From: Rubrivivax sp. | GTDB lineage: Bacteria; Pseudomonadota; Gammaproteobacteria; Burkholderiales; Burkholderiaceae_C | Direction of reading: 5' to 3' | Length of the DNA stretch: 49,879 bases | Assembly (NCBI GenBank): GCA_027490215.1 | Contig: JAIXYO010000058.1 | Coordinates: 1 to 49,879, forward strand | Shown: one piece after another, positions 5,322-37,418 of the stretch | How the letters are laid out: each line of letters opens with the position of its first letter | Numbering within the stretch: position 1 is the stretch's first letter | Translations under genes and position numbers: made by a program | Notes under the pieces: model-generated | Database searches by the model: none | Told to the model about the DNA's origin: nothing | Seen by the model: the letters and a program-made list of their open reading frames with translations, nothing else

Positions 5322-6790
5322 GCGTCGGTTCCAGCGGCTCCCCAGTTGCCCAGGTCGTCGACAAGCATGGCGGGCATGTGCGCCTCGTCCGCCCCGGTTG
5401 CGTCGCCACCCCGCGGGTAGATCGTGCGATGGGACACATAGGCTGCATCAGCGGCAAACAGGTCCTCAGGCACGCGCTGTCCGTTCGACAGGAACAACAA
5501 CGGAAGGTCGTGGCGCAGTACGCAGTCGATGGCCGGTGCCAGGCTCATGCCCTCGTCGATCTTGGTCACGATGGTCGAGTTCAGCCCCTGACCGTTCAGT
5601 GCCGTCTTGTGGGACGCAACGACGTCATCCATGGTCCGCGTCGAGGTCGTAGCGCTCATCACCAGTACGCGGTGCACATTGCCGCAGCCCCTGCGGATCA
5701 TGTCCAGCTGTTCGACCATCATGGTGTCGCGCTGGCTGACCCCGGCGGTGTCGAGCAGCACGATCTTGCGCGATGACAGTTCCGCCAGCTTGCTCTCCAT
5801 GTCCTCGCTGTCGCGCAGTGCCACCACCGGCAGGCCGAGGATGCGGGCAAACAGGCGCAGCTGCTCCTGGGCGCCGACCCGGTAGGTGTCGGTGGTCAAC
5901 AGCGCCACCTGACGCCGGCCATAGCGCATCACGCAGCGGGCGGCGATCTTGGCCAAGGTGGTGGTCTTACCCACCCCGGTCGGGCCGATGAAGGCATACA
6001 CACCGCCGCGGTCGAACATCTCGAAGGCGTCGATCACCTTCAACTGGGCCTGCACCCAGAGTTGGGCCGCTTTCAGTAGTGCGTCGAAGTCGTCCGTGTC
6101 TGGCAGCTCTGTCAGCATCCGCGACACCACGACAGACGAAAGCCCCGCGTTGACCAGACGATGTGTCAACTGGGCGCGGGCCGGGGCGCGCTGCTGCAGC
6201 ACGCTCCAGTAGTTGGTAGCCAGATGCCCGGACAGCATCTGCTTGACCTCGGCCATCTGGCTGGTCAGGTCGTTGAGGCTGGGATTCGACGCTGCATCTT
6301 TGTCACCCGATTCGGCGGGGCTGCCGGGCCGGATCAGGGGGGGCGCAGCTGCAGCGCCTGCCGTGGCTTGCGAGATGGTCGCCTGTCCCCGGGCCGCGCG
6401 CGCCTGCGCCACTTCCATCGCCAGCGACCGCGATTGCAGCGAAATCCGCTGCCGTTCGCGTGGCTGTTCCGGCTGGGGCGCCGGCTCTGCACTGCGCAGC
6501 AGCGTAGGCATCTGCACGTTGTAGGCGCTGGCGGCAGACGGCGGATTCATGGCAGCCCCCAGTGCCCGTATGGGCAGTGTGGCAGACGCCAGCGGACCCG
6601 GGGAAGCGGGTGTGGCTGGCGCCGCCGTCGTCATCGAGACCAGGTCCTTGGCGGCAATGGCCATGAACTCGATGCCGTCGTCGACCTCGCTGCTGGACAG
6701 CACCACGGCATCACCGCCGAGTTCGGCCTTGATCCTGCGCAGTGCGTCCTTGGGGTTGGTGGCGAAATATCGTTTGACGCTCATCTTCAT
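5318..6790 (-). CDS. flhF: SRP-type GTPase FlhF
   Basis: FlhF is an SRP-family GTPase that sets the pole for flagellar assembly. The 490-residue protein has the N-terminal basic segment MKMSVKRYFATNPKDALRRI, a long low-complexity B region (about 50-170), and the NG domain. GTP-binding motifs are complete: G1 GPTGVGKT (269-276), then LLTTDTYRVGAQEQL, the DTAGVSQRD motif, and TKIDEG (G4). Presence of flhF suggests polar flagella. It lies 30 bases after flhA and overlaps flhG by 4 bases. Confidence 0.95.
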   Translation of the reverse strand: MKMSVKRYFATNPKDALRRIKAELGGDAVVLSSSEVDDGIEFMAIAAKDLVSMTTAAPATPASPGPLASATLPIRALGAAMNPPSAASAYNVQMPTLLRSAEPAPQPEQPRERQRISLQSRSLAMEVAQARAARGQATISQATAGAAAAPPLIRPGSPAESGDKDAASNPSLNDLTSQMAEVKQMLSGHLATNYWSVLQQRAPARAQLTHRLVNAGLSSVVVSRMLTELPDTDDFDALLKAAQLWVQAQLKVIDAFEMFDRGGVYAFIGPTGVGKTTTLAKIAARCVMRYGRRQVALLTTDTYRVGAQEQLRLFARILGLPVVALRDSEDMESKLAELSSRKIVLLDTAGVSQRDTMMVEQLDMIRRGCGNVHRVLVMSATTSTRTMDDVVASHKTALNGQGLNSTIVTKIDEGMSLAPAIDCVLRHDLPLLFLSNGQRVPEDLFAADAAYVSHRTIYPRGGDATGADEAHMPAMLVDDLGNWGAAGTDA

Positions 6791-6820
6791 CCTGTCAGGT
6801 TCGGGGTGGCCGTCGGCGGC

Positions 6821-8902
6821 TTACTGGCGCTGGCAGATCACGCGCTGGAAATCGATGCTGGCACTGGACGGCAGCTCCGACATGGCCAGCACGACGGCCT
6901 GTGGTCGCACCCGGTGGGCCAGTCGGGCCAGCGTCAGCCGTGCGTGCTGGCCGCACACGAGCACCGGTGCTTGACCCAGGGCCTCCAGTTCGTCGAAGGC
7001 GGCCGCAGATTCCTCGATGAATCGGCGTGCGAGGTTCGGCTCCACCGCGCCGTCGGGCGCCACCGCTTCGTTGCCGATGGCCTGTTCGATCAGGCGCTCG
7101 AAGTCAGGGTGCAGGCCGGCGACACGGTAGGCGGTGACTTCGCCAAACACATCCTGAACGATCTGCCGGCGCAGTGCCATGCGCAGCGGCGCGACCACGT
7201 CCACCGGCTTGCTGCTGCCAACCAATCGGTCGGCGCAGACCTCGAGGATGGTGCGCAGGTCGCGCACCGTCACGCCTTCTTCCAGGAGCAGGCGCAAAAC
7301 GCTCTGCAGCTGTGCCGGCTGCACCAGCTTCGGTATCGTTTCCTCGACCAGCTTCGGGAAACGCGTCTTGAAGTGCTCGATGAGCTCGTGGGTTTCCTGG
7401 CGCCCGAGCAACTCGTGGGCGTACTGGGCGATCAGCTGGTCGAGGTGGGTGGTGATCACCACCGGTGGCTCGACCACCGTGTAGCCTGCGGCCAGCGCTG
7501 CCGAGCGCCTGTCTCTGGTGATCCAGGTGGCTGGCATGCCGTAGCTGGGGTCACGCACGGACACGCCCTCGATGGCAGTATGGTCGCCCGGCGGGTCGAT
7601 GGCCAGCAGCCGGTCGGGCAGCACCTGACCGCGTGCGATCTCGGCCCCATAAAGCATGAAGCGGTAGACCTCGGGCGGCAGCTGCAGGTTGTCCCGGATG
7701 TGCACTGACGGGATCAGGAAGCCCACCTCGCCAACGAACTTCTTGCGGATCGCCCGAATGCGCTTGATCAGGTCGCTGTCGTCGCCAGCGTCCACCAGGG
7801 AGATCAGACGGTAGGGCAGCTCCAGGCACAGTGGCTCGATGAGTGGCACATCGGCCCAGTTCACCTCGCCGCTGCGGGCTGGCTGGGTGGCAGCCAGCTT
7901 GGCGGCCTGTGTTGTGCGGGTCTGGCGCCGCGTGATGGCCCAGCCGACACCACCAAACAGCCCCGCGAAGGTCAGGAACGCCAGATGGGGCATGCCCGGG
8001 ATCAGCCCCAGCAGAGCCAGGATCGCCCCGACCATGTAGAACGACCCGCCTCCGGAGGCCAACTGCTGGCCGAGCTGGGCGGAAAAGTCGTCGTCGGTGC
8101 TGACACGCGTGACGACGATACCGGCCGCGGTAGAGATGATCAGTGCCGGCACCTGTGCCACCAGCCCGTCGCCCACGGCCAGCGTGGAATAGGTCTGAAG
8201 CGCTTCGCTGAAGCCCAGTCCGTGCTGCAATGTGCCCACAGCCACGCCGGCCAGCAGGTTGATCAGAAGGATCAGGATGCCGACGATGGCGTCGCCGCGC
8301 ACGAACTTCGAGGCACCGTCCATCGAGCCGAAGAAGTCGGCCTCCTGGGCCACCTCGGATCGCCGCTTGCGCGCTTCTTCCTCGCGGATGGCGCCGGTGT
8401 TCAGGTCGGCATCGATGGCCATCTGCTTGCCCGGCATGGCGTCCAGCGCAAAGCGCGCGGCCACTTCTGCCACCCGACCCGCGCCCTTGGTGATCACGAC
8501 GAAGTTGATCACCGTGAGGATCACGAAGACGACCAGGCCCACGGCGAAGTTGCCGCCGATCAGGACCTCGGCAAAGGCTTCGATCACATGGCCGGCAGCG
8601 TCCGTGCCGGTGTGGCCGTCCATCAGCACCACCCGCGTCGAGGCCACGTTCAGCGACAGCCGCAACAGCGTGGTCAGCAGCAGCACCGACGGGAAGGCCA
8701 CGAAGTCCTTGAAGCTGCGCATGTTCATCGCCAGCAACAGCACCAGCATCGACACGCCGATGTTGAACGTGAACAAGGCATCCAGTGCCAACGGCGGCAA
8801 GGGCAGCAGCATCATGCCCAGGACGGCCATCACCAGGATGGGCGCAACGGCCGTGGTGCTCGGAGCGCTCAGGCGCAGATTGCCGAAAGGGGAAGCAGCC
8901 AT
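6821..8902 (-). CDS. flhA: Flagellar export gate protein FlhA
   Basis: FlhA is the large export-gate subunit that couples proton motive force to substrate export. The length of 693 residues is normal. The N-terminal half carries about eight membrane helices, beginning near residue 20 (VAPILVMAVLGMMLLPLPPLAL). The FHIPEP-type cytoplasmic loop is present (RFALDAMPGKQMAIDADL; then EADFFGSMDGASKFVRGDA). The C-terminal cytosolic domain (about 345-693) includes the usual segments around GYTVVEP and LLEEGVTVRDLRTI. It is the first gene of the minus-strand flhA-flhF-flhG-fliA operon. Its usual neighbour flhB is absent from this window. Confidence 0.97.
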   Translation of the reverse strand: MAASPFGNLRLSAPSTTAVAPILVMAVLGMMLLPLPPLALDALFTFNIGVSMLVLLLAMNMRSFKDFVAFPSVLLLTTLLRLSLNVASTRVVLMDGHTGTDAAGHVIEAFAEVLIGGNFAVGLVVFVILTVINFVVITKGAGRVAEVAARFALDAMPGKQMAIDADLNTGAIREEEARKRRSEVAQEADFFGSMDGASKFVRGDAIVGILILLINLLAGVAVGTLQHGLGFSEALQTYSTLAVGDGLVAQVPALIISTAAGIVVTRVSTDDDFSAQLGQQLASGGGSFYMVGAILALLGLIPGMPHLAFLTFAGLFGGVGWAITRRQTRTTQAAKLAATQPARSGEVNWADVPLIEPLCLELPYRLISLVDAGDDSDLIKRIRAIRKKFVGEVGFLIPSVHIRDNLQLPPEVYRFMLYGAEIARGQVLPDRLLAIDPPGDHTAIEGVSVRDPSYGMPATWITRDRRSAALAAGYTVVEPPVVITTHLDQLIAQYAHELLGRQETHELIEHFKTRFPKLVEETIPKLVQPAQLQSVLRLLLEEGVTVRDLRTILEVCADRLVGSSKPVDVVAPLRMALRRQIVQDVFGEVTAYRVAGLHPDFERLIEQAIGNEAVAPDGAVEPNLARRFIEESAAAFDELEALGQAPVLVCGQHARLTLARLAHRVRPQAVVLAMSELPSSASIDFQRVICQRQ

Positions 8903-9118: not shown

Positions 9119-10438
9119 ATGAGCCGTGATTCCTCCGAGGGCTTCGTTCTCGCATTTCATTGCGTTCCCGCCTGGGTGGAGCCTGCGATCGGGATGTTCT
9201 GGTCTGCCTTGGCGCGGGCGCTGCGGGCCCACGGCCAGACACTGGTGCTGGTCTCCACCGTGCCGCTCACAGACCCCGAGCTTCCGGTGGTCAGCATCCC
9301 GTACCTTCTGACAGAGTTCCCGGTCGACGCCGGCACCCTGGCCGGCACACCCGATACTGAGTTGATCGATGAAATCGGGGCTTGGTTCGGTTGCCCACCG
9401 GATGAAGCCATGACGGCGGCGCAGTCGGCCTGTGCCTTGTTCCAGGATCTGCTCGACACGTTCGAGCCGTCTGGGGTGATCGGCTGGCAGAGCATGAATC
9501 CGGCGTCGCGGCTTTTGCGCCAGCTGGCGCGTCAGCGCGACATCCCGTGCTGGATGGCCGAACGGGGGTGGATCCGCGGCACGCTGATGCTCGACCTCTG
9601 CGAGAACAACTTCCTGAGCGAGCTCAATCTCAGCCTGCCGCTCAAGCGTCTGGCCGAAGCCCATCGCCATGACGAGCAAGCGTTTGCGGCGCAGGCCAGG
9701 CGCCTGACAGAAAACAGCTGCCGTTCGCGGTATGCCTCGCCTGAATTCTGTCCGCGGGAGGAATTCCGGGCCCGCCACCACATTCCGACCGATGTGCGGG
9801 TCTTCGTGCTGATGACGCACGGCGAGCCGCATCTCAACGCACTGCCCCGTGGCCGCATACGTGCCAATCACAGCACCTCGCGTGAACGCCTGCAAGCTGA
9901 TGTCGACAACCTGGCCCATGCGCTGGCGCGGCAGGGCAAGTGGCTGCTTGTGCAGGAGCATCCGTTCAACGACGCGGCCGGCGCTGCGCTCGTGCTGCCG
10001 CAGCTGCCAAATGTGCTTCGCGTCACGGCGTCGGTGGATACGCTCATCGAGTGCGCCGACTGCATGCTTTTCACACTGTCTACCGTGCAGTTCGATGCGG
10101 CGCTGGCCGGCAAGCCGTTCGGCCTGTTGAGCAGAGGCCCGCTGTCCCTGGCCAGTGGCCCGCCCCAGCGGGCAGACCACGCCTCGACCGAGGCCTTTCT
10201 CGCTAGCATCGAGGATGCTGACGCCTGGCCGGCACGTCGCCTCATCATCGATCGGCGCCTCGCGTTCCTGCTCGATCACGTCCTGCTAAGCATCGACGAT
10301 GAGGCGGCGCGGATCGACTCGGCCCAGCGAGCGGCCGATCTCCTCGGCCCGCTCACCGCCTACCCACCTGCCGATCTGGATCAGCGCTTCTCGCAGTTCA
10401 TTGAGCGTTGGCAATCACCGGCGCCCCAGGGCAACTGA
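9119..10438 (+). CDS. Putative GT-B glycosyltransferase (capsule-synthesis type)
   Basis: This 439-residue cytosolic protein has no signal peptide or membrane helix. It resembles the GT-B-type proteins of the capsule polysaccharide synthesis group. An AERGWIRGT segment (147-155) matches their conserved Glu-Gly-aromatic motif between two Rossmann-like halves. In the C-terminal half, VQEHP (278-282) and LSTVQFDAALAGKP (320-333) match the nucleotide-sugar-binding pattern (HP...; ST...EAL..GKP). It lies between flhA and flagellin fliC1, with the sigma-28 promoter of fliC1 just after its stop. I infer that it may glycosylate flagellin or a surface glycan. Acceptor and sugar cannot be read from the sequence. 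Confidence 0.65.
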   Translation: MSRDSSEGFVLAFHCVPAWVEPAIGMFWSALARALRAHGQTLVLVSTVPLTDPELPVVSIPYLLTEFPVDAGTLAGTPDTELIDEIGAWFGCPPDEAMTAAQSACALFQDLLDTFEPSGVIGWQSMNPASRLLRQLARQRDIPCWMAERGWIRGTLMLDLCENNFLSELNLSLPLKRLAEAHRHDEQAFAAQARRLTENSCRSRYASPEFCPREEFRARHHIPTDVRVFVLMTHGEPHLNALPRGRIRANHSTSRERLQADVDNLAHALARQGKWLLVQEHPFNDAAGAALVLPQLPNVLRVTASVDTLIECADCMLFTLSTVQFDAALAGKPFGLLSRGPLSLASGPPQRADHASTEAFLASIEDADAWPARRLIIDRRLAFLLDHVLLSIDDEAARIDSAQRAADLLGPLTAYPPADLDQRFSQFIERWQSPAPQGN

Positions 10439-11837: not shown

Positions 11838-14342
11838 ATGCCCGCAAACCCTCGCACCAACCTCTGCATGTCCACCACCGCCTCCATCACCCCGACCACG
11901 ATCACGGCGCCCGAGCTTCTCGGCCTGATCGACAACCTGCCCGCAGGCGTCAAGGCGCTGTCTCTGGATTGCTTCGACACCTTGTTCTGGCGCAAGGTCG
12001 TTCGCCCGACGGACGTCTTCTTCAACCTGCAGGGCACACCGCTGTGGGCCGCGGCGGGCATCACCGCTCAACTGCGCGCCCGGGCCGAGGAGGGGGCTCG
12101 CAAGCGCCGCTTCCTGACCAGCGGCACGACCGAAATCTCGATCGAGGACATCTACCGGACCCTGCTGAGCACTGGCGACACGGCCGATGTCTCGAGCTGG
12201 GTGGCGGCAGAGTTGGCTGCCGAGGCGGCCCATGGCTTTATCTATTTCCCCGTGCTGGACCTCATTCGACGCGCGCGCGCGCGCGGCCTGCGGGTCTTCA
12301 TCGTCAGTGACATCTACTATTCGGCGCGCCAGCTCAGCACGCTGCTGCAAGCAGTCATGGGCGAAGACTTCCGTCTGATCGACCGGGTCCATTGTTCGAG
12401 CGACCACGGGCGGAACAAGTCGCAGGGCCTGTTCGTGCCGGTGTTGCGCCGGGAGAAGCTGGCGCCCCATCAAGTCCTGCACATGGGCGACAACCCCGAG
12501 GCGGACTTCCAGGGCCCGGCACGCCTGGGCCTGCACGCGCGCCATCTGGTGAACCTGCCCGAAGTCCTGCTGCCGCAGTTGGAAGCTCGCGAGCAGGCCG
12601 CGTTGCAGCTGATGCCCGACGTGCGCCAGGCCTGCGGGGTGCCCAGCGCATATCACGCCTTGTGGGCCATGCAGGGTGCTGGTTTGGAGAGCGGGGCACG
12701 CAAGATCGGTTATCTGGCCCTGGGCCCGATCTTTCACGCTTTCTCGATCTACCTGCGCGACCAGCTGGCCCGGCTCGCCGAAGGCGGCCGCCCGGTCAAG
12801 TACGCCTTCCTGCTGCGGGACGGCTACCTGCCCTCGCTCGCCTTCGCCGCGTTCAGTGGCGTGCAAGGGTGCCCGCAGGTCAACGTCTCGCGACTGACCG
12901 CTGGGGCCGCAGCCCTGCGCACCCGCGACGACGTGATGCTTTTCCTGTCGAAGAACCTGGCGCCGACCAACCTGAAGGAAGTCGCGGCCCAGCTGATGCT
13001 GCCGCCGGAAATCTCGCAGGACATCATCGCCAAGGCTCTGCTGGAGCGGAGGCCGGAACGGGCCTTCTGCAGATTGGTGATGCGTGACGACAACCTCAGC
13101 AAGGTGTTCCTGGCGTCACGGCAGATCCGACAGCGCCTGTACACGCACCTGCGCCAGCAGACAGGCCTCGCGCGAGGCGACACGCTGGCACTGATCGATC
13201 TGGGCTACAGCGGCACCGCGCAGACCGCGCTATCGGCAGTCTTGCGCGACGAACTCGATGTTGATCTGCAGGGCATCTACCTGATCTCAAGCCGCGCCAG
13301 CGCGCAGCAGGCCGACCGTCGCGGGCTCGTCGGCTCGGATTGGGCCGACGAACGCCTGATCCTGACGCTGACCGCCTATATCGGCACTTTCGAGATGCTG
13401 TGCACCAAGGCCCAGGCTTCGGTCATCGACTACACCGAGGATGGCGAGCCGGTGCTGGGCGCAGTCGGCACCAAGGGCCAGCAGTCGGCGGTGGTGCAGC
13501 AGATGCAGGCTGCTTGCGTGCAGTTCGTCGCCGACGCCGTGGCCCTGCCAGCGCGCTGCCAGCCGCGCTTGACCGCGCAGGAACTGGGCCGCCAGGTCGT
13601 GGCCGACCTGGGTCGACTGCTCTATCTGCCGGAACGTGACGAGATCGCCTGCCTGACGGGTTTTGAATTCGACGTCAACAAAGGCTCGGACCTGGTACTC
13701 GCACTGGCCGACCTGCCCGCCGGCACGCGCGAGTTCAGGCGCCATGGGTGGGCGATGATTCACAACCAGGACGCCGAGATGCGTATCGGCTATCCGATGG
13801 AATTGCGGTATCTGGATCTGGCGCTGTCGACCACCCTGATCGCCGCCCACCGGTACGGCTTCGGCATCCGGCCGGGTCTGGCCAGTTACCGCCTGGAATC
13901 GGTACCGGTGCTCTATGCCACAGCGACCGAACACTGGCAGGTCCCGATCGAGGCCCGCGCTGGCCACGATGGCTATTTCGTGATGAACCTGATCCTGAAT
14001 TCCAAGTTGAGCACAGCGGTGCTGTGGGGGCAGCAGCACGAGTGGCTACAGATCGACTCCATCGAGAAGGTCCTGCTGACCAACCACAGGGACCGCAAGC
14101 TGCTGACCCTGGGCTCGGACGTGGTGCTCGACGGCATCGAGTCCATCGCCAATGGCCTTCTGCACTGTAGTCAGCAAGGCCTGATGTTCATCGCGCCCGG
14201 TGTGGCCAGCGACGACCGGCGCTACCGCATTCAGGTGGTCTACCGGTCAATCGCAGCCCGGGCCACTGCCCCTGCCGCACCTGTCGCCGATGGCGCAACC
14301 GCAGCCACGGGAGACGGATGGCGCCACTTCAGCGGTGGCTAA
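11838..14342 (+). CDS. Large HAD-superfamily protein between the flagellins
   Basis: The gene encodes 834 residues; an alternative start is ATG 11868. The N-terminal part (about 38-245) is a HAD hydrolase domain: motif I LSLDCFDTLF (Asp44 nucleophile), motif II VSDIYYS, a Lys in RNKSQG, and motif IV HMGDNPEAD. Motif I is DxFDT rather than DxDxT, as in the large HAD proteins often found in polysaccharide clusters. The remaining about 580 residues are unrecognised; they include IGYLALGPIFHAF and LIDLGYSGTAQ, both common in that group. It lies between two flagellin genes, with a sigma-70-like promoter. Role in flagellin or surface-glycan modification is inference; the substrate is unknown. Confidence 0.7.
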   Translation: MPANPRTNLCMSTTASITPTTITAPELLGLIDNLPAGVKALSLDCFDTLFWRKVVRPTDVFFNLQGTPLWAAAGITAQLRARAEEGARKRRFLTSGTTEISIEDIYRTLLSTGDTADVSSWVAAELAAEAAHGFIYFPVLDLIRRARARGLRVFIVSDIYYSARQLSTLLQAVMGEDFRLIDRVHCSSDHGRNKSQGLFVPVLRREKLAPHQVLHMGDNPEADFQGPARLGLHARHLVNLPEVLLPQLEAREQAALQLMPDVRQACGVPSAYHALWAMQGAGLESGARKIGYLALGPIFHAFSIYLRDQLARLAEGGRPVKYAFLLRDGYLPSLAFAAFSGVQGCPQVNVSRLTAGAAALRTRDDVMLFLSKNLAPTNLKEVAAQLMLPPEISQDIIAKALLERRPERAFCRLVMRDDNLSKVFLASRQIRQRLYTHLRQQTGLARGDTLALIDLGYSGTAQTALSAVLRDELDVDLQGIYLISSRASAQQADRRGLVGSDWADERLILTLTAYIGTFEMLCTKAQASVIDYTEDGEPVLGAVGTKGQQSAVVQQMQAACVQFVADAVALPARCQPRLTAQELGRQVVADLGRLLYLPERDEIACLTGFEFDVNKGSDLVLALADLPAGTREFRRHGWAMIHNQDAEMRIGYPMELRYLDLALSTTLIAAHRYGFGIRPGLASYRLESVPVLYATATEHWQVPIEARAGHDGYFVMNLILNSKLSTAVLWGQQHEWLQIDSIEKVLLTNHRDRKLLTLGSDVVLDGIESIANGLLHCSQQGLMFIAPGVASDDRRYRIQVVYRSIAARATAPAAPVADGATAATGDGWRHFSGG

Positions 14343-33467: not shown

Positions 33468-33784
33468 GCAACATGACCGGTTACGCCTTGTCGTTGCTGC
33501 TGCTGGTGGCTCTGGTGGCGGTGGCGCTGTCGCTGGCCTGGCGCAGGCGCTCGCCGAGCGCAAGCGGTACGAAGGGCGAGGTTCGCGTGCTGGAAGTGGT
33601 GCCCGTCGGCCCCACTGACCGACTGGTGCTGGTAGGCCTTGCCGGCCAGCGCTACCTGTTGGCGCAGGGCACCCGGGGATTGACGTTGCTGGTGGCGCCT
33701 CCCGCGGCTCCGACTTTTGCTTCATTGGGGGATTGGTCCGCTGCGCCCAAGACCGTGCCAGTGGTTGAATCGAGCCCGTCATGA
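33464..33784 (+). CDS. fliO: Flagellar export protein FliO
   Basis: FliO assists FliP assembly into the export gate. The 106-residue protein has an N-terminal membrane helix (about 5-24, YALSLLLLVALVAVALSLAW) followed by the short FliO domain (VRVLEVVPVGPTDRLVLVGLAGQRYLLAQGTRGLTLL). It starts in an ATGA with fliN and overlaps fliP by 4 bases. Confidence 0.9.
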   Translation: MSNMTGYALSLLLLVALVAVALSLAWRRRSPSASGTKGEVRVLEVVPVGPTDRLVLVGLAGQRYLLAQGTRGLTLLVAPPAAPTFASLGDWSAAPKTVPVVESSPS

Positions 33785-34530
33785 ACGCCCGGCGGGTCGT
33801 CCTGCTCGGGCTGACGCTGGCCATGCTGACTGCCGTGGGCGCCGCCAGTGCCCAGGCCATCCCCTTGGTCGACGGTGTGCCGAGTGCGGGTGGCGGTACC
33901 AGCTACACCGTGCCGGTGCAGACCCTGCTGCTGCTGTCGGCGCTGTCCTTTCTGCCTGCGGCGCTGATGCTGATGACCAGCTTCACCCGCATCCTGATCG
34001 TGTTCTCACTGCTGAGGCAGGCGCTGGGCCTGCAATCCATGCCGCCCAATTCGGTGCTGGTGGCGCTGTCCCTGTTCCTCACCTATTTCGTGATGAACCC
34101 GGTCTTCAACGAGATGTACCAGAAGGGCTGGCAGCCCTACGCGAACAAGGAGATCCCGCTGGAGACCGCGCTGGAGCGGGGCAGCGCGCCGCTGAAGGCC
34201 TTCATGGTGAGACATACCCGCGACTCCGACCTGCAGCTTTTTTCGCGGCTGGCTCGCGAGCCCCTGACCGACCGCGAGAGCGCGCCAATGCGGGTGGTGG
34301 TGCCTGCCTTCGCGATCTCGGAGATCCGTACCGGCTTTCTGATCGGCTTCGTCGTGTTCCTGCCCTTCGTGGTGATCGATCTCGCCGTGGCCAGCATCCT
34401 GACCTCGTTGGGCATGGTGATGGTGTCGCCGATCATGTTCACGCTGCCTATCAAGCTGATCGTCTTCACGCTGGCCGATGGCTGGAGCCTGCTCGCCGGT
34501 TCGCTGGTCGAGAGCTTTCTCACCAAGTAA
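33781..34530 (+). CDS. fliP: Export gate protein FliP
   Basis: FliP is the core of the FliPQR export pore. The 249-residue protein has a cleavable signal peptide (MNARRVVLLGLTLAMLTAVG, ending near ASAQA) and the four membrane segments with the signature SFTRILIVFSLLRQALGLQ, LFLTYFVMNPVFNEMY, and the C-terminal FLIGFVVFLPFVVIDLAVAS and PIKLIVFTLADGWSLL. It overlaps fliO by 4 bases. fliQ follows 12 bases later. Confidence 0.97.
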   Translation: MNARRVVLLGLTLAMLTAVGAASAQAIPLVDGVPSAGGGTSYTVPVQTLLLLSALSFLPAALMLMTSFTRILIVFSLLRQALGLQSMPPNSVLVALSLFLTYFVMNPVFNEMYQKGWQPYANKEIPLETALERGSAPLKAFMVRHTRDSDLQLFSRLAREPLTDRESAPMRVVVPAFAISEIRTGFLIGFVVFLPFVVIDLAVASILTSLGMVMVSPIMFTLPIKLIVFTLADGWSLLAGSLVESFLTK

Positions 34531-34542
34531 AGGCAGAAATCG

Positions 34543-34812
34543 ATGGACGCCGGCCTGGTCATGGAACTGCTCATTGGTGCGCTGCGCATGACCGCCATTC
34601 TGGGCGGTCCCGTCATCCTGACCGTGCTGATCGTCGGCATCGTCCTCGGCGCGCTGCAGTCGGCCACGCAGATCAACGAGCCGGCGGTTGCCTTCGTGCC
34701 GAAGTTGTTGGCGGTGATGCTGGTGTTGGCCGTCACGGGGGCCTCCACGCTGGGCATCTTCGTCGACTACGTGCGGGAAATGATCACCCGCATTCCGCAG
34801 ATTGCCGGATGA
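34543..34812 (+). CDS. fliQ: Export gate protein FliQ
   Basis: FliQ is the small gate subunit of the FliP5Q4R1 complex. The 89-residue protein has two hydrophobic hairpin helices (about 15-40 and 50-75) and the signature GPVILTVLIVGIVLGALQSATQINEPAVAFVPKL. It starts 12 bases after fliP with an AAAGG site and overlaps fliR by 4 bases. Confidence 0.95.
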   Translation: MDAGLVMELLIGALRMTAILGGPVILTVLIVGIVLGALQSATQINEPAVAFVPKLLAVMLVLAVTGASTLGIFVDYVREMITRIPQIAG

Positions 34813-35576
34813 ACACCACCGGTCTGGATGCCGCCTTGATGGGTCTGGCGGCCACCTACCTGCTGGCTTCGGTGCGATTTCTGGGCCTGTTCCTGGCCTT
34901 GCCGCTGTTGTCCTTTCGCGGGTTGCCGCTGTCGCTTCGTGTGGCACCGGTGCTGCTGCTGGCCCTGGTGGCCGCGCCACCGGCGGGCGCGCCTGTCAAC
35001 GCCGATCTGATGAGCGTCGGCAGCGAACTGGCTATCGGGCTGGTGATGGGCTGGTCATTGCGCCTGGCCATGCTGGCCGTTGACCTGGTGACGGAGGCGC
35101 TGTCCATGCATTCGGGCTTCAGCTTCGCGCAGACCGTATCGCCCGACGCCGCGCTTCCCTCCACGGCACTTGGCGAACTGTTGGGCATGGCGGTTCTGGC
35201 TGCCCTGTTCGTCAGCGACGTGCACCTGGTGTTCATTGAACTGCTGGCCACCAGCATGACTCGGGTGCCGCTGGGCAGCTGGCCCTCCGGTTGGGAGCTG
35301 CCGGGGCTGCTGGCCCTGGTCACCGGCGCGTTCTCGATGGGGTTGGTGCTGTCGTGCGGCAGCTTTGCCCTTTACCTGTTCTCGAACACCATGCTCGGAC
35401 TGATCAGCCGGGTCTCTCCGCAACTCAACCTGATGGCAGTGGGCTTCTCGATAAGCGCACCGCTGGCCTTGCTGGTCATGCTGGTGCTGGCATTGCAACT
35501 GCCTGCGCTGGCGGACGCGATCGCCACCGCCGCCCTGGCCTTCGTCTGGCAGGGCCTCGGCCCGGGCCCGCCTTGA
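34809..35576 (+). CDS. fliR: Export gate protein FliR
   Basis: FliR completes the FliPQR gate. I start it at ATG 34809, in an ATGA with fliQ; the open frame reaching back to 33717 runs through fliP and fliQ and is an artefact. The 255-residue protein has about six membrane helices and the family pattern (RFLGLFLALPLLSFRGLPLSLRVAPVLLLAL, then a SMHSGFSFAQTVSPDA segment, FALYLFSNTMLGLISRVSPQLNLMAVGF). In other species flhB often follows; here the next gene is a carbonic-anhydrase-like gene. Confidence 0.95.
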   Translation: MNTTGLDAALMGLAATYLLASVRFLGLFLALPLLSFRGLPLSLRVAPVLLLALVAAPPAGAPVNADLMSVGSELAIGLVMGWSLRLAMLAVDLVTEALSMHSGFSFAQTVSPDAALPSTALGELLGMAVLAALFVSDVHLVFIELLATSMTRVPLGSWPSGWELPGLLALVTGAFSMGLVLSCGSFALYLFSNTMLGLISRVSPQLNLMAVGFSISAPLALLVMLVLALQLPALADAIATAALAFVWQGLGPGPP

Positions 35577-35708: not shown

Positions 35709-36839
35709 ATGATGCGCAAAACCACCCTTGCCGGTCTGACCGCCTGCACACCCTTGGCCCTGGGCCTTCTGCTGTCTGCGGCCGCCCTTTCGGCGCATGC
35801 CATCGAGGAAGGTCCTCCCTCCATCAAGGAAGGCCTGCCCAAGCCCGCCGTAGCACCGGCTTCCGGCGCACTGTCGCCTTTCAAGTCGAAAGGCTCGGCG
35901 ACGGCGCCCAATGCCGCAGCGGAGCCGGACAAATCGCGCAAGCCTGCCGCCACACCCATTGCCAAGGGTGAGGCCAGTGCCGACGAAACCCTGCAGAAAC
36001 TGCTCGCCGAGCGCATTGCAGGCTCGGGGGATGTGGTCCTCCGGACTCGCGAACCGTCGCCGGCCAAGCCAGCTGCTGTCGAGGCACCTCCAGCGAAGCC
36101 TGCAGCGAGCGCCAAGAAAACGCCCAAGCCCGAGGTGGCTGCCCAACCGACGGTGCCCCTGCCGCCCCCCCGCTGGGACTATTCTGGCGACGGCGGTCCA
36201 GAGCGCTGGAGCACGCTGAAGCCCGAAAACGCGATCTGCGCCAGCGGCTTGCGCCAGAGCCCGATCGACATCCGCGATGGCATCAAGGTCCAGCTCGACC
36301 CTGTGCAATTCGACTACCAGCCCAGTGGCTTCCGCGTCGTCGACACCGGCTACACCGTCCAGGTCAATGTGGCCGCCGGCAACACCATCCAGATCATGGG
36401 CCGCCGCTACGAACTGGTGGGGTTCAATTTCCGCCGGCCCTCGGAAGAGCGCGTCAATGGCCGCGGTTTCGACATGGGCGTCCACATGGTCCACAAGGAC
36501 ATGGATGGCCGACTGGCGGTGGTGGCCGTGATGCTGACGCGTGGTGCTGCGCAGCCGGTGATTCAGTCCGTCTGGAACAACCTGCCGCTGGAGCGCAATC
36601 GCGAGGTCGAAGCGGCCTCGCTGCTCGACCCGTACAAGCTTCTGCCAGACGACCCCCGCTACATCACCTACATGGGTTCGCTGACCACCCCCCCGTGTAC
36701 CGAAGGCGTTCTGTGGATCGTGATGAAGACGCCAGTTCAGGTGTCGGCCGAGCAGATCGCGATCTTCTCGCGCCTGTATCCGATGAACGCGCGTCCTGTG
36801 CAGCCCGACAACGGCCGTCTGATCAAGGAATCTAACTGA
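35709..36839 (+). CDS. Secreted alpha-carbonic-anhydrase-like protein, zinc site degraded
   Basis: The gene encodes 376 residues from ATG 35709 (the frame extends to a TTG at 35652). An N-terminal signal peptide (cleavage after ALSAHA) is followed by about 130 residues of Pro/Ala/Lys-rich linker and an alpha-carbonic-anhydrase domain (about 155-370). Family landmarks are WDYSGDGGPERW, RQSPIDIRDG, PSEE, DMGVHMVHKDMDG, and SLTTPPCTEGVLWIV, with the usual bacterial Cys pair. The metal motif FHFH reads FNFR (Asn240, Arg242), leaving only His259 of the three zinc ligands, and the second-shell Glu before it is Gly. Catalysis is therefore unlikely. It lies between fliR and flgB, so a structural role in the periplasm near the basal body is possible. 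Confidence 0.88.
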   Translation: MMRKTTLAGLTACTPLALGLLLSAAALSAHAIEEGPPSIKEGLPKPAVAPASGALSPFKSKGSATAPNAAAEPDKSRKPAATPIAKGEASADETLQKLLAERIAGSGDVVLRTREPSPAKPAAVEAPPAKPAASAKKTPKPEVAAQPTVPLPPPRWDYSGDGGPERWSTLKPENAICASGLRQSPIDIRDGIKVQLDPVQFDYQPSGFRVVDTGYTVQVNVAAGNTIQIMGRRYELVGFNFRRPSEERVNGRGFDMGVHMVHKDMDGRLAVVAVMLTRGAAQPVIQSVWNNLPLERNREVEAASLLDPYKLLPDDPRYITYMGSLTTPPCTEGVLWIVMKTPVQVSAEQIAIFSRLYPMNARPVQPDNGRLIKESN

Positions 36840-37004: not shown

Positions 37005-37418
37005 ATGACCTCTGTACCTCCGTTCGATCCTGCTGCCTTCCATGCCGCTGCGCTGCAGTTGCGTAGTCATCGGCACGTGGTGCTGGCCTCGAATCTGGCC
37101 AACGCCGACACGCCCGGCTACCTGGCGCGGGACATCGACTTTGCCTCGGTGCTGCGCGAGAAGATGCAGGGCCTGAGCGCGTCAACTCGCCTGCCACTGG
37201 CCAGAACCGCCGGTAGCCACCTGTCTGGCATCGAGGACTCGTCTTCGCCGGCCCTCGGATATCGAACCGTGCTGCAACCCAGCGTTGACGGCAACACCGT
37301 CGACCCCGATGTCGAGCGCGCGCACTTCGCCGAAAACTCGACCGGTTTCGAACTGGCTACGGCGCTGCTCAGCCATACGAAGCACGCCCAGCAAATGGCC
37401 ATCACGGGGCAGCCATGA
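37005..37418 (+). CDS. flgB: Proximal rod protein FlgB
   Basis: FlgB is a proximal rod subunit. The ATG at 37005 gives 137 residues; a TTG at 36966 adds 13 unlikely codons. Family features are the N-terminal rod motif HRHVVLASNLANADTPGYLARDIDF and the C-terminal helix ENSTGFELATALLSHTKHAQQMAITG. It is the first gene of flgBCDEFGHIJ and overlaps flgC by 4 bases. Confidence 0.95.
   Translation: MTSVPPFDPAAFHAAALQLRSHRHVVLASNLANADTPGYLARDIDFASVLREKMQGLSASTRLPLARTAGSHLSGIEDSSSPALGYRTVLQPSVDGNTVDPDVERAHFAENSTGFELATALLSHTKHAQQMAITGQP

Follow-up and report, generated by a model that had tools for sequence, protein, structure and literature searches.

The closest described relatives of the protein reported here are the bacterial α-carbonic anhydrases (CAs) (PF00194; PDB entries 6eki, 4x5s, and 1kop). 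It shares with these enzymes the fold, the Cys pair, and the SPIDI, PSEE, and SLTTPPC motifs, but it lacks two zinc His residues, Q92, N62, and His64, carries a linker motif specific to its genomic place, and is encoded in a flagellar cluster. Residue names such as Q92, H94, and H64 follow the numbering of human CA II and were assigned through the motifs. Dioscorin, a plant storage protein, has to our knowledge no flagellar link. It has the α-CA fold and is among the matches of our protein, and the title of its PDB entry (4twl) gives ascorbate as a ligand. CARPs VIII, X, and XI are inactive α-CA folds for which noncatalytic roles have been proposed (PMC6609565). Like them, our protein has an α-CA fold that has lost at least one zinc His, but CARPs are animal proteins, whereas its nearest PDB relatives are bacterial enzymes. 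Its best PDB matches are bacterial CAs, with no CARP-named molecule among the best 60 of 240, and the bacterial identity of its nearest relatives may point to a loss separate from that of the CARPs. FlhE, which acts in the periplasm, has become part of a flagellar operon, where its gene follows flhB and flhA, and has been proposed to be a rod-assembly chaperone (PMC11247099). Our protein is likewise the product of a flagellar-operon gene and probably periplasmic; unlike FlhE, it is encoded behind fliR, and at an E value of ≤0.01 its Pfam match is to the CA family alone.

A keyword search of titles and the beginnings of abstracts in the open-licence literature, where absence is not proof, found no CA tied to a bacterial flagellar cluster. 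It returned a motility screen with a can mutant that had a growth defect (PMC3948606), a use of CA as a gel standard (PMC2936354), and genome descriptions whose searched portions do not tie a CA to a flagellar cluster (PMC9686282); the available part of a review of bacterial CAs does not contain the string "flagell" (PMC5746736). As far as this search goes, the tie of a CA to a flagellar cluster is new, and the fold family, its inactive animal members, and the flagellar genes were already known.

The window, i.e., the whole stretch of DNA analyzed, is a contig of 49,879 bases that carries a long flagellar cluster together with a CA gene. CA genes beside fliR or flgB are termed linked here, and unlinked copies are termed standalone; unlinked means that a fliR or flgB match was absent from the sequence read around the gene, which for most loci reached 1.5 kb to either side and was shorter at contig ends. 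The window gene encodes 376 amino acids without internal stops, and the protein matches PF00194 with 120.6 bits against a cutoff of 27 (E value, 1.2e-34), the sole Pfam family at an E value of ≤0.01. A sequence search of the PDB matched a bacterial α-CA (E value, 7.1e-55), and an NCBIfam search returned no family. A Pro/Ala/Lys-rich stretch precedes the CA domain. The features of the locus are as follows, the cluster genes being named by eye, except for fliR and flgB (Pfam).

33781..34812, + strand: fliP and fliQ, upstream; named by eye, with tblastn matches in the same order at other linked loci
34809..35576, + strand: fliR of the CA-linked clade (PF01311, E 1.3e-38; FliR tree)
35709..36839, + strand: flagellum-linked gene for an α-CA-fold pseudoenzyme (translation; PF00194, E 1.2e-34; domain dN/dS 0.05 to 0.11 in three genomes)
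35709..35801, + strand: probable signal peptide, residues 1 to 31 (MMRK...SAHA), read by eye
35979..36047, + strand: conserved linker motif, residues 91 to 113 (ADETLQKLLAERIAGSGDVVLRT), present in all 40 linked proteins whose N terminus could be read; a modelled helix of modest confidence
36171..36833, + strand: α-CA-fold domain, residues 155 to 375 (AlphaFold2 pLDDT mostly 90 to 98; Foldseek PDB matches to bacterial α-CAs)
36345..36353, + strand: T213-G214-Y215 in place of N62-G63-H64, proton shuttle gone (comparison with relatives)
36420..36434, + strand: G238-F-N240-F-R242 in place of QFHFH, two zinc ligands and Q92 gone (comparison with relatives)
36477..36485, + strand: G257-V-H259, the E117 position (mostly Val in relatives) and the sole zinc His kept, H119 (alignment)
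37005..37418, + strand: flgB (PF00460, E 1.8e-6)

The initial annotation described a secreted protein with the scaffold motifs and Cys pair of α-CAs, lying between fliR and flgB, with FNFR in place of the metal motif FHFH. The translation, the PF00194 match, and the alignment bear out the scaffold, with the Cys pair (residues 177 and 330) conserved in 44 and 45 of 45 aligned rows, and Pfam matches to PF01311 and PF00460 bear out the gene's place. Residues 239 to 242 are indeed FNFR (H94N and H96R) and the third His, H259 (H119), is retained, so that the zinc positions of an α-CA enzyme (EC 4.2.1.1; 94, 96, and 119) are occupied by N, R, and H. The window protein has also undergone N62T, Q92G, and H64Y, the last of which puts Tyr215 where the enzyme has its proton shuttle His64. 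The Thr199-Glu106 gate pair is kept as T326 and E246. The initial annotation had further listed a second-shell Glu-to-Gly change. This change is not special to the window: the Glu117 column is Val across most of the subfamily, including His-intact members, with Glu in only 2 of 84 distinct unlinked copies, and its loss is a subfamily-wide trait outside the window's dismantling. A sequencing slip as the source of FNFR was rejected as unlikely, since the same protein occurs at the same place in two more genomes (domains 99% and 95% identical), both of them metagenome-assembled genomes (MAGs) with a common sample label. The suggested structure prediction yielded an α-CA-fold model with a domain pLDDT of mostly 90 to 98, and the six best Foldseek matches of the model in the PDB are bacterial α-CAs, with TMt values of 0.87 to 0.91 (0.91 to 6eki) and identities of 37 to 41%.

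We lean, with modest confidence, toward the reading that the linked CA-fold protein is a fixed and so far unrecognized component of one flagellar lineage, a periplasmic accessory that no longer needs catalysis. Its placement in the genome would fit a basal-body component, and the linked gene sits between export-gate genes (fliPQR) and, mostly, rod genes (flgBC), in the FliR clade described next and at the loci of family f18, genus g172, and a second genus. In a quick tree of 102 FliR rows, a single branch (SH-aLRT, 99) splits 12 FliRs with a CA gene from 90 without one. The CA gene lies behind fliR in 12 of 12 loci of this clade and in 0 of the 90 others, for which roughly 1.5 kb was read (86 have at least 1,200 bp downstream, and a more distant CA would be missed). 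Seven linked loci were dropped from the tree, six with a short FliR piece only and one without a FliR match. For eight of the 12 clade FliRs, the genome had no previously known CA and was reached by a FliR search; the remainder are from G000, G130, and G131, found by the CA search of the window's genus, and G408, whose CA was already known. The clade spans several genera and three family codes.

In a FliR search of 399 genomes across the order, the window was followed by six loci of two other families (E values of 1e-41 to 1e-43, versus 1e-25 for the next match). All six have a CA behind fliR, two of them with one open reading frame (ORF) between, versus none of the next five loci. Family f18 (26 genomes) has the window-type FliR in six genomes, each with the CA, and none of its 13 loci with other FliR types has one; the gene order fliP-Q-R-CA-flgB-C-D was read in two f18 loci. 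In genus g172, 47 of 151 genomes have a CA match, and fliR lies upstream of the CA in 28 of the 30 loci read; L210 is truncated at a contig end, although flgB and flgC follow its CA, and L212 is unlinked. flgB was found within 1.5 kb after the CA in 23 of the 29 linked g172 loci and not found in six. A second genus is represented by L053 (MAG Burkholderiales Jr-25may17-74), with the CA between fliR and flgB; match places in common with G156 suggest that it is genus g12 of the window's family. A CA match is present in 19 of its 21 genomes, and 4 of the 20 loci read out of 24 are linked. At most 30 CA loci were read per search. The linked and unlinked sets are search yields and non-random samples. 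An occurrence of the CA-linked FliR clade elsewhere in the class was rejected: in a search of 369 genomes, none of the 29 other FliR loci among the matches listed has a CA.

The initial annotation had also suggested testing whether FNFR, or another non-His pattern, and the fliR-flgB position are conserved together. FNFR and this position are not: FHFH is retained in all four linked copies of the second genus, in 2 of 6 in f18, and at 27 of 29 linked loci in g172, with FNFR itself confined to three genomes, all from the window's genus. FNFR as a signature shared by flagellar CAs at large is rejected, since 32 of 41 distinct linked copies retain their His ligands. Relatives with FHFH are found away from flagellar loci as well, part of what the initial annotation had named as refuting evidence, but loss of the zinc site recurs in other linked copies. 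What stands of the proposed noncatalytic flagellar role is a dismantled metal site, purifying selection, and a place behind fliR kept far beyond the genus, which make the role better founded than could be known from the window's sequence. Conserved position is by itself not proof of function.

Two ORFs between fliR and the CA were noted, L152 2231-3019 (g172) and L053 4777-5490; judged by eye, both may have a lipobox. They were rejected as one conserved partner, since the two proteins are dissimilar and neither has a Pfam match. At L053, the CA and flgB are separated by a multicopper oxidase gene (6728-8884, − strand) of opposite orientation.

The linked proteins share a linker motif of 25 residues, a helix followed by G-S-G-D-hydrophobic-R-T, in 40 of 40 proteins with a readable N terminus. 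The motif was first spotted in these proteins, so this count is descriptive, and its absence from unlinked proteins is the test: a motif profile found no match in them (this region is 60 residues or longer in 81 of 84) or elsewhere in the window, and the three cut linked copies are its only other matches. Most unlinked copies carry a different helix at the linker, DPMDxLRERLAEKLGA, which is perhaps related. A Pfam scan of the linker in three linked proteins found no family, and AlphaFold2 models the motif as a helix with a pLDDT of about 66.

At least one zinc His is missing from 9 of 41 distinct linked domains, compared with 1 of 84 among the distinct unlinked ones; the count excludes the three linked copies that are cut (L127, L152, and L153). 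The linked losses comprise three N94/R96 copies in the window's genus, four E94/R96/Q119 copies in g197 (one of them cut), and two D94 copies in g172, which may still hold zinc, by analogy with the His2Asp zinc site in the title of PDB entry 1cvc. The sole unlinked loss is L045 (1077-1739), the only CA match of G123, a genome of the window's genus, with Q94, H64R, N62T, and T200I. The remaining 32 linked copies have every readable zinc His, so most linked bacteria may have an active enzyme. On a 44-row CA tree built without the site columns, four losses are forced by starred branches (bootstrap 5 to 95% range, 4 to 4), and an 84-row tree also gives four. Three of them fall in linked copies and that of L045 in a standalone copy, i.e., three events on 6.5 units of tree length versus one on 13.2, events too few for the difference in rate to be firm. 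An approximately unbiased (AU) test did not reject the window and g197 losses as one clade (P = 0.097), so the independent losses could be fewer. With that qualification, the zinc site was apparently lost three separate times in the linked lineage while the gene was under selection.

Changes at the losing copies are concentrated in the active site. Conserved positions (93 columns, 11 of them core catalytic) were defined from the consensus of 114 others, with L064, L212, and short rows excluded. The three copies of the window's genus changed at seven columns, six of which are catalytic (N62T, H64Y, Q92G, H94N, H96R, and the E117 position; Fisher P = 4e-6), and the seventh adjoins H119. This P value is flattering, because the core list was drawn up after the window's changes had been seen, and the other groups are the fairer test: 6 of 13 changes are in the core in g197 (P = 6e-4), 6 of 9 in L045 (P = 4e-5), and 4 of 15 in the D94 pair (P = 0.07), for which targeting is weakly indicated. 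Site-keeping groups have 1, 11, and 3 altered columns, and no core column is among these. His64 was lost in all four zinc-site losses, N62T occurs in three of the four, and R96 occurs in two (N94/R96 and E94/R96/Q119), and E106 and T199 are retained in the ligand-losing copies wherever readable.

These patterns suggest that the linked CA serves the flagellum through binding, with catalysis not required. The window protein would be secreted, consisting of a signal peptide, a Pro/Ala/Lys linker, the motif, a further linker, and the α-CA fold, and would act at the basal body, within the periplasm. Docking to a component of the flagellum may be the task of the motif, and the CA fold may form a rigid binding module at the rod, the P-ring, or the peptidoglycan side, comparable to an FlhE-like assembly chaperone or an accessory ring protein. 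The ancestor would have been catalytic with catalysis dispensable, from which repeated loss of the catalytic site would follow, the window's lineage having also lost its proton path. More tentatively, and with somewhat less than even confidence, the protein would be a structural element new to the flagellum, all members of the subfamily, including the standalone ones, would serve flagella, and catalysis would be optional and repeatedly shed. A metabolic enzyme would then have become motor architecture, with intact, D94, N94/R96, and E94/R96/Q119 stages coexisting. Lists of flagellar parts are widely held to be near complete, some accessory rings aside. If our reading is true, a part has been overlooked at a fixed place behind fliR in three families, and the copies form a rare natural series from enzyme to scaffold, in which the importance of catalysis for the motor can be tested directly by comparing the FHFH and FNFR versions at one locus.

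It is rather unlikely, in our estimate, that the protein instead manages protons and bicarbonate, the ancestral linked enzyme having sped CO2/HCO3−/H+ exchange at the stator or export gate and the inactive forms acting as a proton antenna, a role much like the one proposed for inactive human CARPs at the lactate transporter MCT1. The intact zinc His residues of the 32 linked copies are what such an enzyme would keep, but the shuttle His64 is gone in every zinc-site loss, and position, motif, and selection outlast the catalytic site. The joint loss of His64 weakens this catalytic or proton-antenna explanation, which may still apply to the many intact copies.

Equally unlikely in our view is a CA with a general periplasmic role that lies by chance inside the flagellar cluster and moves along with it. 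Standalone copies of the same subfamily adjoin ordinary-looking genes (15 loci, by eye), and the flagellar cluster is patchy: of the 15 genomes in the window's genus, 3 have it. Against this, the place behind fliR is kept in several genera of three family codes, and the motif is location specific. In addition, the three carriers in the window's genus (G000, G130, and G131), which have the FNFR copy in the flagellar locus, own a second, FHFH CA elsewhere. All 15 genus genomes have a CA match, and the other 12 have one each, without fliR or flgB in the locus read. The second CA of the window's genome has an intact FHFH and is cut by two contig ends (L003, at the start of G000:C47, and L002, at the start of G000:C60), whose 403-bp overlap is 96% identical, reflecting either a strain mixture or two near-identical copies.

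The subfamily also tracks flagella, which counts against chance carriage and in favor of the flagellar reading. Among 399 genomes of the family, a FliR match is present in 101 of 103 with a CA at an E value of <1e-85, versus 144 of 209 without a CA match (Fisher P = 5e-11, kinship ignored); the CA classes were set by eye, and a FliR match may be a type III secretion relative. The weaker CA classes have FliR matches in 51 of 55 and 28 of 32 genomes, and the two FliR-less genomes of the best class are fragmented (630 and 460 contigs; 93% and 91% complete). Within the window's genus, window-type FliR occurs in the same three genomes as the FNFR copy. The other 13 of 16 FliR matches are of a distant type (31 to 34% identity; G000 and G130 have one each), adjoined by fliP and fliQ and without a CA in the locus read, and the best identity to any other FliR among the matches listed for the 399 family genomes is 38%. 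The window cluster therefore resembles an additional flagellar system with a patchy distribution. The CA tree was rooted on a single long, distant row; next to two outgroup rows, its deepest branches are linked ones (one deep fork is weakly supported), the window's clade lies among unlinked copies, and linkage requires three changes, so that the CA of the window cluster may have been swapped or recaptured. Either linkage was the ancestral state, from which the gene escaped and to which it returned by a later swap in family f1, or the same spot captured standalone genes repeatedly.

Slightly less likely still is a new ligand site, in which Asn240 and Arg242, or the Glu/Arg/Gln pocket, bind another anion or a peptide, an idea modelled on partner binding by inactive CA relatives. 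The recurrence of R96 in two lineages and N62T in three, with E106 and T199 retained where readable, would fit it, but residue 94 differs among lineages, and a shared origin of the window and g197 losses is not rejected by the AU test.

The window-genus CA gene is under purifying selection. Its domain has dN/dS values of 0.05 to 0.11 (three genomes), compared with 0.10 to 0.16 for fliR, 0.15 to 0.17 for flgB, and 0.11 to 0.14 for the FHFH copy, and the part before the domain has values of 0.30 to 0.45; the g197 CA gives 0.07 to 0.14, a rough estimate at dS > 1. A pseudogene was rejected on these values, and a decaying duplicate on its way to one, as two missing zinc ligands and an FHFH paralog in the same genome might suggest, is most improbable given this constraint, a stop-free frame, an intact Cys pair and fold, and the confinement of six of seven conserved-column changes to the active site. 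An in-frame N-terminal extension to the fliR stop was likewise rejected, the 132 bp from fliR to the ATG evolving as noncoding sequence (dN/dS of 0.9 to 1.7). Elsewhere in the window, two large genes (9119-10438 and 11838-14342) lie beside and between the two flagellin-like genes, as judged by eye; one of them starts in a HAD-type-like manner and perhaps functions in flagellin glycosylation.
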